A stretch of DNA of 57,330 bases. Origin: an uncultured bacterium (GTDB lineage Bacteria; Planctomycetota; UBA1135; GCA-002686595). The DNA lies in NCBI GenBank assembly GCA_905480285.1, contig CAJQPT010000085.1, forward strand, positions 1 to 57,330, in the 5' to 3' direction. Position numbers and translations under genes: made by a program. The stretch's first letter is position 1; every line of letters starts with the position of its first letter. This document shows positions 18,364 through 24,484 of this stretch, in pieces. The notes beneath the pieces are model-generated. The model did no database searches, was not told the DNA's origin, and saw only the letters and a program-made list of their open reading frames with translations.

Positions 18364-19301
18364 TCAGACCGCCGCGATTCGAGGCGACAGGTCCTCGGGC
18401 CGGATCACCCCGCCGGAGAGCGCCACCGCGCGGCGCAGCTCGTTCTCAAGCTCACGGACATTCCCGGGCCAGGACCAACCAGCCAGGGCGGCGAGGGCCT
18501 CCTCGCTGATGGAGGCCTCCCGGCCGACCTCTTCGGCGATCCCCGGGAGGATGGCCCGGGCGATGGCACGCACGTCGTCCCCGCGGTCCCGCAGGGGCGG
18601 GAGGTGGAGGGTGACGACGTTCAACCGAAACATCAGGTCCTCCCTGAAGTCGCCGCTGGCCACGGCGGAGGGGAGGTCCCGGTGGGTCGCCGCCAGGATC
18701 CTCACGTCCACCTTCTTGGTCGTGTTGGCGCCAACGGCGCGGACCTCGCCGTCCTGCAGGACTCGCAAGAGCTTGGCCTGCATGGGGAGGGGCATGTCCC
18801 CGATCTCATCCAGGAAGACCGTCCCCCCGTCCGCCACCACGAAGTGCCCGGGGCGATCCGCCACGGCCCCCGTGAACGCACCCTTCTTGTGGCCGAAGAG
18901 CTCGCTCTCCAGCAGGTTCTCGGAGATGGCGGCGCAGTTCTCCGCGAGGAAGGGCCCCGCCTTGCGGGGGCTCGCGTCGTGGAGAGCCCGGGCGACGAGC
19001 TCCTTCCCCGTTCCCGTTTCGCCCTGGATCAGGACCGGCACGCCAGAGGCCGCGACCCGATCGATCATCGCAAACAGCTCGAGCATGGGCGGGCTCGACC
19101 CGATCATGCCGAAGCGGCCGCCCGGCTCCGGAGCAGGCGGCGCGGTCGACGCGCACGAGGCCTCGGCGGCATCCAGGACCCGCCGTGCGTGAGCTGCCAG
19201 AGGCGCCACGACGCCCCGCTCCTGCGCCTGCACGAGGACACGGTCGAACGCCTCCTGCACCTCTAAGGGCAGGGGCTGCGCCCCCCCGGCATCCTCGGCG
19301 C

Positions 19302-19305
<4 letters not shown>
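18364..19305 (-). CDS. Sigma-54 AAA+ activator without receiver or HTH domain
   Basis: The 313-residue protein contains a nearly complete bacterial enhancer-binding-protein ATPase. Walker A is GETGTGKE (95-102), the sigma-54 contact loop is GAFTGA (142-147), Walker B is VFLDEIGD (163-170), the arginine-finger region is FREDLMFRLNVVTLHLPPLR, and the sensor II part is WPGNVRELENELRR. The N-terminal 65 residues are short, helical and not a receiver, PAS or GAF domain. The protein ends at GGVIRPEDLSPRIAAV, where other family members carry a Fis-type HTH, so DNA binding is missing. The start ATG at 19305 overlaps the helicase stop by four bases (ATGA); the open frame further upstream merely shadows the helicase gene. 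Confidence 0.92.
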
Positions 19306-21518
<2,213 letters not shown>

Positions 21519-21567
21519 CGCGGCGGCGAGTCTACCCGCCGCGCGCTCCCTGGCCACGCGCCGCCCG

Positions 21568-22992
21568 TCAGCTTCGGTCTGGATCGCGGATGACCATGAG
21601 GCGTAGCTCGGTCATCTCCTCCACCGCGCTCGCCGGCCCCTCACGACCGAGGCCCGAGTCCTTGACCCCGCCGTAGGGCATCACATCCGCCCGCCAGGAG
21701 GGGACATCTCCGACGATGACGGCCCCCACCTCGAGCTCGTCCCAGGCCCGGTGAGCCCGGTGGAGGTCCCGGGTGAAGACCCCTGCCTGAAGGCCAAACC
21801 GGGTCCTGTTGGCCTCCACGAGCGCCCGGTCAAAGTCGCTCGCGCGGACGAGGCAGACGACCGGACCGAAGACCTCCTCGTCCAGCACTGGCTCCCCGGC
21901 AGGGACGCCCTCGAGGAGCGTCGCGGGCATCACGGAGCCCTCTCGTTCCCCGCCCCACAACTTCGTTGCGCCGGACTGGCACGCACCCCGGACCCACTGC
22001 TCCACACGCGCCGCGTCACCCTCCGAGATCAGCGGGCCCACGCTCACCCCTTCCTGAGATGGGTCCCCGTGAACGACCTTGGAGACCTCCTCGATGAGGA
22101 GCGCCCGGAAGGCCGCGTAGACCTCATCGACGACGATGACCCGCTGCACGCTGATGCAGCTCTGGCCCGCCTGGTAGTAGCCGCCGAACGCGACCCGCCG
22201 CGCGGCGTCCGCCAGGTCCGCGGTCTCATCAACGATGGCCGCTGCGTTCCCCCCGAGCTCGAGCGTGACGCGCTTCTTTCCGGCCCTCCGCCTGAGCATC
22301 CACCCCACCTCGTCGGAGCCGGTGAAGGAGAGCTTCGCGACCCGATCGTCGGTGGCGAGGGCTTCCGCGTCAGCGCCCCTGGCAGGCAGGACCGAGAAGG
22401 CACCCTCCGGCAGCCCACTCTCCGCGAGCAGCTCACCCAGGATCAACGCGCTGATGGGCGTGCTGCTCGCAGGCTTGAGGACGAAGGGGCAGCCCGCAGC
22501 GATGGCCGGCGCGACCTTGTGCACCACGAGATTGAGCGGGAAGTTGAACGGCGTGATGAACCCGCAGACCCCGACCGGGACCCGCATCTGGCTCCCCCGA
22601 TATCCGGTGTTCGCGGGGCTGGAGGAGAGTGGCAGGAGCCCGCCCGGTGAGTCCATGGCCACCCGCGCCGAGATCCGGATCGTCTCCAGCGCCCGGTCGA
22701 CCTCCCCCGCGGCGAACTGGCGTGGTTTCCCTGCCTCCCGAACCAGGATGTCCGTGAGCTCGTCGCGCCGCGCCAGCACCCCTGCTGCCAATCGCTCCAG
22801 CACCGCCGCCCGCTCATGACCCGCCATGCGGCGCATGGCCTCCCGGCAACGGCTGGCTGCCGCGATCCCATCGCGGACCGTCTCCGGGGATGCCAGGGCC
22901 ACCTCTTCGAAGGCCTCTCCCGTGAACTTGTCCGAGACCGTCAGCCGCTCTGCCGAGGAACAGGCCTTGCTCGCGAGGTAGAAGGGTCTCAT
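21568..22992 (-). CDS. Aldehyde dehydrogenase family protein
   Basis: The protein has 474 residues from the ATG at 22992 (MRPFYLASKACSSAERLTVS). The frame is open to 23196, but the extra 68 residues are low-complexity, cross the 15-bp repeat, and are atypical. It oxidises an aldehyde to an acid with NAD(P). The catalytic cysteine is Cys279 in YYQAGQSCISVQR, and the general base glutamate is in VTLELGGNAAA. Nucleotide-binding pieces include FITPFNFPLN and LSFTGSDEVGW. The pattern is closest to the lactaldehyde/semialdehyde-type branch, but substrate cannot be fixed from sequence. An intrinsic terminator on the same strand lies about 180 bases upstream of the start, so its leader may be regulated. 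Confidence 0.93.
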   Translation of the reverse strand: MRPFYLASKACSSAERLTVSDKFTGEAFEEVALASPETVRDGIAAASRCREAMRRMAGHERAAVLERLAAGVLARRDELTDILVREAGKPRQFAAGEVDRALETIRISARVAMDSPGGLLPLSSSPANTGYRGSQMRVPVGVCGFITPFNFPLNLVVHKVAPAIAAGCPFVLKPASSTPISALILGELLAESGLPEGAFSVLPARGADAEALATDDRVAKLSFTGSDEVGWMLRRRAGKKRVTLELGGNAAAIVDETADLADAARRVAFGGYYQAGQSCISVQRVIVVDEVYAAFRALLIEEVSKVVHGDPSQEGVSVGPLISEGDAARVEQWVRGACQSGATKLWGGEREGSVMPATLLEGVPAGEPVLDEEVFGPVVCLVRASDFDRALVEANRTRFGLQAGVFTRDLHRAHRAWDELEVGAVIVGDVPSWRADVMPYGGVKDSGLGREGPASAVEEMTELRLMVIRDPDRS

Positions 22993-23025
22993 GGGGCGCG
23001 CGCCGGCGGGCGCGGGGTCCCCCAT

Positions 23026-23070
23026 GATAGGGACCCCAACAGCAGGGACCCCAACAGCAGGGACCCGGGA
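23026..23070. repeat. 15-bp tandem repeat in the aldehyde dehydrogenase leader
   Basis: The unit GGACCCCAACAGCAG is present about 2.7 times, just upstream of the ALDH start (between the intrinsic terminator and the ATG on the minus strand). Confidence 0.7.
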
Positions 23071-23165
23071 CACACAGCTTCTCCCTGCGGCGGACCGTTC
23101 TGCGGGCCTCATCGCCCCGGTGGGGATGCTCCGGCCGGAAAGTTCCGGTCGAGACGTCCCGCGAC

Positions 23166-23214
23166 CCGAATAAAAAAAGGACTCCTCGGTCGGCAAGAGC
23201 CGATCGAGGAGTGA
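23166..23214 (-). terminator. Intrinsic terminator pointing to the minus strand, upstream of ALDH
   Basis: The arms ACTCCTCGGTCGGC (plus-strand 23182-23195) and GCCGATCGAGGAGT (23200-23213) form a 14-position stem with a four-base loop. Read on the minus strand it is followed by CC and seven T residues (plus-strand 23172-23178 AAAAAAA). This is the best intrinsic terminator in the window. No minus-strand gene ends nearby, so it must end a short RNA or an attenuated ALDH leader. Confidence 0.85.
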
Positions 23215-23370
23215 GGCCCGGCGTCATGTGAACGGATCGCCTGCCAAGAAAAACCCGAGGCGCCGTGCCTATTCGATGGATGGAGGGCAGTTGCGCCGCT
23301 CCCTGCGGGGACTATCGGTAATTTGCCACCCGCACTCAACTCCAATACTAGCAATTATCCCACGGGTCTC
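23215..23370 (-). ncRNA. Candidate small RNA or structured ALDH leader
   Basis: This stretch of the 538-base gap between the ALDH start (22992) and the kinase-like gene (23531) has no convincing ORF on either strand. It contains the most AT-rich patch of the region (minus strand GGATAATTGCTAGTATTGG, then GGTGGCAAATTACC at plus 23317-23330). It ends in the intrinsic terminator at 23166-23214. That arrangement fits a 120-150 nt RNA transcribed leftward, either free-standing or as a cis-acting leader of ALDH. I could not match it to tmRNA, SRP RNA, 6S or a known riboswitch; the strings GGTGGCAAATTACC and CGCAACTGCC faintly recall cobalamin riboswitches, but no B12 box is seen. Confidence 0.4.
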
Positions 23371-23435
23371 CTCCCCATCCACCATCCCAAGCCTGCGGGA
23401 GGAGAGGCCATCCAGACCAGGGGAGCAGCCCAGGC

Positions 23436-23480
23436 CCTTCTTGGGGCCCTTTTTGGGCCCTCCCCGGGGCCCGAACTGGG
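23436..23480. other. GGGCCC-rich hairpin cluster upstream of the kinase-like gene
   Basis: Three GGGCCC blocks separated by TTTTT and TCCCCG can form alternative hairpins about 50-95 bases before the ATG at 23531. It is possibly a structured 5' leader. The rest of 23371-23530 shows nothing recognisable. Confidence 0.4.
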
Positions 23481-23530
23481 GCGCTCCCGAGGCCACCGCC
23501 GGCCAAAGGGAGGGGCTAGGCTTGAGCGAC

Positions 23531-24484
23531 ATGACCTCCGCGCGGCCGCTCAACAGGGACCTCCTTCGCCGGATCCGAGTGATGCCCGAGCACCAGACCG
23601 GTGCCCTGTTGGACCTCGCCCGGCGCTGCACCGCCCCGGCATCTGAAGAGACTCAAGCCCCCCTCATGCTCATCCAGATTGGAGGGGTGGAGGTGGAAGG
23701 GACCATCAAGGGCGGGCCTCTGCCCCTTCGCCGCTGCCTGCAGCTCGGCCTCCGGCGCTGGGTCCTGGGTGCCCCCGCCCCGTGCGAGGCCGAGGCCAAT
23801 CATCTCACCTGGCTGAGAAAGCGGCTCTTCCGCGCCGCCGACCCCCTGGGGTCGGTCACCCTCCATCATCTCGGGTTCCCCTCACGCGAACTCTTGGTCA
23901 CCCGCGCCGTCCACGGGGCGCTTCCCCTCCGCGAAGCCAGCGCAGCCGCGGACTCCAGCCGCCGGGCCCAGCTCTTCGCCGAGTTCGGGAGAGAGGTCGG
24001 GCGCATGCACGCGCTTCGATTCCTGCATGCCGAACTGCACCCAGGGAACGTCCTCGCCACCGAGCCGTGCGACGAACCGGGGCCGGGGTTTGGCCGGTCG
24101 CTGATCTGGCTTGGGAGCGCCAAGGGGGGCCCCACCGCCTGGCGCCGTGGCAACCTGGATCGGCTGGAGGATGACCTGGGCGCCTGGTTCAGCCTCGCTG
24201 CGGACTGGATGCAGGGAGAGGACACGGAAGCCCTGCTGCTCGCCTACGCCGCCTCCCGGCTGGCGAACGGCCGTCCAGTCTCCGGGCTCCCCTCGCTCGT
24301 GAGCTCGATCCAGCGCTCTCGCCGCCGGGAGCTGGCTCGATTCGAGCGCTCCCCGCGCCTCCTCGGCGGCGCGGAGTTCCCCGTCGCCGGATGGGATCCC
24401 GATGTGGGCCGGCTTCAGAGGCTCTGGGACCTCGGAGCCCACTGGGCGCTCCGACCCGTTGTTTCAGGGCCAGATCTGGTCTAG
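23531..24484 (+). CDS. LPS-kinase-like (WaaP/InaA-type) protein, degenerate active site
   Basis: The protein has 317 residues from the ATG at 23531; upstream in-frame sequence to 23228 is low-complexity leader and was excluded. The layout resembles the Kdo/WaaP/InaA small kinase family: VTLHHLGFPSRELLVTRAV (hinge region), FGREVGRMHALRFLHAELHP (catalytic-loop region), then GNVLA. The expected H-x-D-L-x-x-x-N loop here reads HAELHPGNVL, with Glu for the catalytic Asp. The expected metal-binding Asp (LIDxxR-like) is replaced in SLIWLGSAKGG. It may therefore be a pseudokinase or a divergent kinase. The role could be phosphorylation or recognition of a cell-surface sugar lipid, but that is inference. 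The FmdB gene follows 20 bases later. Confidence 0.72.
   Translation: MTSARPLNRDLLRRIRVMPEHQTGALLDLARRCTAPASEETQAPLMLIQIGGVEVEGTIKGGPLPLRRCLQLGLRRWVLGAPAPCEAEANHLTWLRKRLFRAADPLGSVTLHHLGFPSRELLVTRAVHGALPLREASAAADSSRRAQLFAEFGREVGRMHALRFLHAELHPGNVLATEPCDEPGPGFGRSLIWLGSAKGGPTAWRRGNLDRLEDDLGAWFSLAADWMQGEDTEALLLAYAASRLANGRPVSGLPSLVSSIQRSRRRELARFERSPRLLGGAEFPVAGWDPDVGRLQRLWDLGAHWALRPVVSGPDLV

Follow-up and report, generated by a model that had tools for sequence, protein, structure and literature searches.

Organization of the locus

The window, by which we mean the whole 57,330-nucleotide stretch of DNA that was analysed (69.7% GC), carries a run of minus-strand genes and, at higher coordinates, a divergent gene on the plus strand. 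Between them lies a non-coding interval with an intrinsic terminator. The genes and the terminator are as follows:

18364-19791, minus strand: AAA+ protein of the sigma-54 activator type (PF00158), start uncertain
19302-21557, minus strand: UvrD/PcrA-type helicase (PF00580, PF13361; the best NCBIfam match is pcrA, below its cut-off)
21568-22992, minus strand: aldehyde dehydrogenase (ALDH; PF00171, E 1.3e-131), the first protein gene downstream of the RNA described below
23172-23212, minus strand: intrinsic terminator, a 14-position stem (23212-23181) with one A-C mismatch followed by seven U residues (23178-23172)
23531-24484, plus strand: Kdo/WaaP-kinase-like gene (PF06293, E 3e-6), divergent from the RNA and a conserved neighbour

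A preliminary description of this DNA reported a minus-strand terminator with a 14-position stem and seven U residues that stands behind no gene on its strand, an AT-rich non-coding patch, and an ALDH start about 180 bases downstream of the terminator, all of which held up on measurement. The terminator folds at -23.8 kcal/mol compared with a mean of -9.7 kcal/mol for shuffled sequences (z -5.96), and none of 200 shuffles equalled it. No protein gene precedes it on the minus strand, and its neighbour on the high-coordinate side, the kinase-like gene, is on the plus strand and points away. From the U tract to the ALDH start codon (22992-22990) is 179 nt. The terminator lies downstream of the patch (23317-23359), which has 44% GC and whose AT-richness is matched by 0.05% of the 43-nt stretches in the window. 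Two overlapping plus-strand terminator-like matches, rich in GGGCCC, are found just before the kinase-like gene at 23429-23448.

Structure and covariation of the element

Conservation, covariation and synteny point to a structured small RNA gene on the minus strand. Its 3' end lies in the U tract, and its 5' end would be near 23338 if the upstream -10 box is used or near 23304 if the inner promoter is used. The gene and its parts are:

about 23338 or about 23304 down to 23172, minus strand: structured small RNA gene, 5' end predicted
23282-23303, minus strand: 5' hairpin GGGAGCGGCGCAACTGCCCTCC
23214-23270, minus strand: core element, an 11-bp outer stem (23270-23259 with 23225-23214) around the inner hairpin
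23233-23257, minus strand: inner hairpin CGGGT...ATCCG with the conserved loop TCTTGGCAGGCGA at 23249-23237

The RNA is recognised by a hairpin whose loop, UGGCAGGCRA, is almost invariant. All 16 members carry TGGCAGGC, which is followed by R-A in 15 of them and by TA in the other (G009), and which is also invariant in an alignment of ten deeper members. The best-conserved stretch is AGGCAcGGcGCCTCGGGTTTTTCTTGGCAGGCGAyCCG...GCCt plus the terminator. The hairpin GGGAGCGGCGCAACTGCCCTCC folds in the window, and relatives carry different hairpins in its place. Deep members possess a second motif, GCGAGCGA, repeated at the 5' end and in an upstream hairpin, and they also keep a AATCCTCC...GAGG hairpin in the 5' part, which the subclade of the window has replaced, as well as an AUCCUCC stretch, which is not consistently retained in the window and its close relatives. 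No conserved reading frame was seen within the RNA, and a small encoded peptide was rejected because the start codons that occur within it are not conserved.

When 14 members were aligned to the model, 94.9% of paired cells formed standard pairs compared with 77.2% in shuffles, and 23 of the 34 pairs had changes on both sides, including nine of the 11 pairs in the outer stem and 11 of the 14 in the terminator stem. The covariation score was 0.635 versus 0.280 for shuffled sequences, and fell to 0.12 or less when partners were slid by one to three columns. These figures are somewhat inflated since the alignment was fitted to the structure, as is the contrast with the shuffles by the kinship of the sequences. 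Run independently on the five closest sequences, MAFFT/RNAalifold gave the same fold as the model. The preliminary description had named conservation of the stem in relatives and covariation among homologous leaders as the evidence to look for; the wider element proves to be conserved, the terminator is both kept and covarying, and the structure is compensated.

Distribution of the RNA

In a DNA search with 23000-23530, four genomes of the genus proved to have the element, at the same site, with the kinase gene on one side and ALDH on the other. A covariance model built from five sequences found one significant copy in the organism's own genome and matched all nine genomes of the genus that were examined, including Saltatorellus ferox Poly30; four of the nine had been missed by BLAST and were recovered by the model with E values of 4e-6 to 2.6e-8. 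The complete genome of Planctomycetes bacterium Poly30 (CP036434.1), which we take to be Saltatorellus ferox, carries the RNA, its core and terminator occupying 2359836-2359936. Iteration of the model (R2) added five genomes from other genera (G018, G081, G069, G096 and G021), and reading of the regions upstream of UvrD added G090 and G009. Besides the genus itself, at least four further genera of the family have the RNA.

In a sample of 392 genomes of the phylum, searched with strict filters, there was no accepted member beyond the family. Since that search also missed G090, a weak member from within the family, it does not prove that the RNA is absent elsewhere. The regions upstream of UvrD in 40 further loci, several of them ending at a contig edge, showed the motif with its hairpins only in G090 and G009. 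A pattern scan of 84,980 species returned five contigs, all of which carry the RNA by the model and appear to be family members already found. Weak model matches without the loop core were left out of membership. These included three matches from the phylum search (L182-L184) and L024 (G006:C173), together with L069 and L070 from a search of the order, in all of which the alignment or, for L182-L184, the sequence shows the terminator and part of the outer stem only, and six more from the order search (L072-L077), in which the loop motif was sought at the match and not found. Viral contigs gave 29 exact matches to the loop pattern, which were treated as chance because none was supported by the model.

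Promoters and downstream genes

The AT-rich patch and the region behind the terminator contain these promoter-like sequences:

23345-23350, minus strand: putative -10 box TAGTAT in the AT-rich patch, predicted promoter of the RNA
23311-23339, minus strand: putative alternative promoter from a five-genome alignment, TTGAGT (23339-23334), 17 nt, GATAGT (23316-23311)
23024-23029, minus strand: putative -10 box for the ALDH operon, TATCAT, located behind the terminator of the RNA

In most of the 16 members an AT-rich box, often containing TA, precedes the loop motif by about 100-110 nt, and mean GC across the members is lowest at -101 to -109 from that motif. The alternative promoter TTGAGT/GATAGT is kept in the closest relatives only. 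A sigma-70 scan found no promoter for the RNA, and the -10-like box has no clear -35 partner. Three genomes (L020, L021 and L022) share the sequence CCCCTTC some 20 nt before the -10-like box, and it may be the -35 element of a promoter of a type other than sigma-70. The RNA probably has a promoter of its own.

The RNA is upstream of the ALDH/UvrD cluster and co-directional with it in nearly all contiguous members, and in many genomes no more than about 200 nt separate the terminator from the start of the next gene. The identity of that gene varies. The window, G001, G081 and G096 have ALDH at this position; UvrD comes directly after the terminator in G006 and G007 and farther off in G018 and G090; and a PHP-like gene (named from its translation) follows in G009. 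In G021, for which the evidence is one 3.7-kb contig of a draft assembly, nothing was recognised within 370 nt after the terminator, and UvrD is on another contig behind an operon labelled CcoG-type from translations rather than from a profile search. On the divergent side of the RNA, G009 (L109, 2481-3227) and G018 (L064, 4373-5122) have a methyltransferase-like open reading frame, which in G018 lies between the RNA and the kinase-like gene.

Boxes resembling -10 elements occur behind the terminator in most members checked. All five of the closest genomes have TATSAT 40-45 nt ahead of the ALDH start, TATGAT or TATGGT is right behind the U tract in G081, G069 and G096, and TAGAAT immediately precedes the start of UvrD in G007 and G006; G001 has a weak candidate only (CATATGGA). 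None of these boxes has a convincing -35 partner. The spacer behind the terminator is not conserved even in the nearest relative. Short direct repeats of CAGCAGGGACCCCAA units are present in the spacer of the window (23031-23066), and unrelated tandem repeats of GTCGAGCCGGGG units occupy the spacer between the RNA and ALDH in that nearest relative (G003).

Comparison with known RNA families

At the gathering cut-off, Rfam 15 identified two tRNAs elsewhere in the window and nothing at the RNA. At E<=10 there were chance-level matches only, and a search of distant members at E<=1 gave nothing of use. The Rfam scan of the leader that the preliminary description called for thus matched no family. 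That description had also likened two short strings to pieces of a cobalamin riboswitch, a fold that it could not complete. Both strings, GGTGGCAAATTACC and CGCAACTGCC, are present and look alike by eye, but the cobalamin model (RF00174) does not match even at E<=10.

Two known families came into consideration and differ from the element. 6S RNA (RF00013) was rejected, there being no covariance-model match at the locus and the genome's own 6S candidate being situated on another contig (G000:C35:3-168). That candidate clears the Rfam cut-off only narrowly in five of the nine genomes of the genus and was not found in two, which indicates a poor fit of the 6S model to this lineage. The anti-hemB RNA (RF02837) gave a sub-threshold match in one distant member (L013; 23.3 bits versus the 49.5 needed), and deep members carry an AUCCUCC stretch, which is not consistently present in the window or its close relatives.

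A further comparison is with the Pxr sRNA of Myxococcus, a lineage-restricted RNA of about 110 nt with three stem-loops, whose gene is between nla19 and a NADH dehydrogenase gene and beside a sigma-54 regulator (PMC5568312, PMC5684412). The element resembles Pxr, compared by features alone, in being restricted to a lineage, in its syntenic locus and in having a sigma-54 regulator nearby; identity with Pxr was rejected given the different locus and phylum. Like the Rho-independent, trans-encoded sRNAs of bacteria, it is intergenic, with a promoter-like patch, modular hairpins, a U-tailed terminator and a conserved exposed stretch. It differs from these sRNAs generally in matching no Rfam family and in being confined, as found, to one planctomycete family. 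The element is not described in the titles and abstracts of a partial collection of literature on planctomycete sRNAs and uvrD-linked structured RNAs. The RNA appears to be a previously uncatalogued one that is conserved, through compensatory changes, across a single planctomycete family.

Proposed function of the RNA

The feature is likely to be a stand-alone gene for a small non-coding RNA on the minus strand at a syntenic locus, one of the two possibilities raised in the preliminary description. The covarying structure, the conserved terminator, the AT-rich patch at a fixed distance, the single copy in the organism's own genome and the family-wide conservation all support this reading. Transcription would start in or just after the AT-rich patch and yield a transcript predicted to be about 130-170 nt long, ending at the terminator (23212-23172). 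The predicted fold has three parts: a 5' region that varies, the conserved hairpin of two tiers that displays the loop UCUUGGCAGGCGA, and the U-tailed terminator hairpin. The loop, exposed and conserved on a stem whose bases change while their pairing is kept, is the likely working surface, and it could serve either as a seed for pairing with mRNA or as a protein-binding site. The RNA is probably trans-acting. No target was found, the own genome holding no perfect 12-nt complement of the loop outside the RNA gene, so any pairing with mRNA would be shorter or imperfect.

The preliminary description's other possibility was a cis-acting attenuation leader that senses a metabolite or protein and uses the terminator to set readthrough into the ALDH-UvrD-activator operon. 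The short distance from terminator to gene and the complex conserved structure with its invariant loop are compatible with such a leader, and the orientation and locus, constant across several genera, would be expected of a leader as well as of an independent gene. We nevertheless regard it as unlikely. The downstream gene differs among genomes, with UvrD separate in G021, and an RNA that is not tied to one downstream gene is what is expected of an independent sRNA gene. The -10-like boxes after the terminator, which are evidence at the level of sequence, suggest that ALDH and UvrD are most likely transcribed from a promoter of their own. Moreover, in nascent folds of 16 members, a simple minimum-energy test, the partners of the 5' arm of the terminator scatter or are absent, giving no consistent antiterminator, and the non-conserved spacer and the lack of a match to any Rfam riboswitch, cobalamin included, also speak against a leader. 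Three or four of the nearest relatives of the window pair this arm weakly near the 5' end of the RNA, so a switch specific to the subclade is possible; since the RNA is genuinely linked in position to the ALDH-UvrD-activator cluster, and this linkage is conserved, some effect in cis is likewise conceivable. The independent gene is favoured because of the upstream AT-rich box, the varying downstream gene, the -10 boxes behind the terminator and the lack of a shared antiterminator.

A variant of the stand-alone RNA, which takes up a small share of the likelihood given to it, would bind and sequester a protein instead of pairing with mRNA, an action like that of RNAs that sequester CsrA but directed at a different protein. 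Fixation of both the loop and its closing stem, the repeated GCGAGCGA motif of deep members and the missing long mRNA complement fit this variant, which is quite unlikely given that the loop is not a known GGA site for CsrA and that the subclade to which the window belongs shows no evident GCGAGCGA repeat. It is highly improbable that the terminator is a chance or decayed one in conserved DNA that yields no functional RNA. Terminator-like matches do arise by chance in the region (six were found and 3.0 expected), but the outer and inner stems covary outside the terminator and the element is conserved over several genera.

The analysis provides a defined RNA family, with a fold supported by covariation, a fixed locus and a member in a complete genome (CP036434.1, Poly30), and it corrects the easy reading, as a terminator upstream of an enzyme gene need not mean a riboswitch. 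Regulatory RNAs are little known in the Planctomycetota, with few characterised sRNAs in the phylum. Saltatorellus, a shape-shifting planctomycete, is within the family that has the RNA. It is possible, though we hold it only tentatively, that this is a new regulatory-RNA family private to Saltatorellus-type planctomycetes that may act as a global regulator through mimicry of ribosome sites or sequestration of a protein, for which the surfaces would be the GCGAGCGA repeats and AUCCUCC in deep members and the UGGCAGGCRA loop in nearly all.
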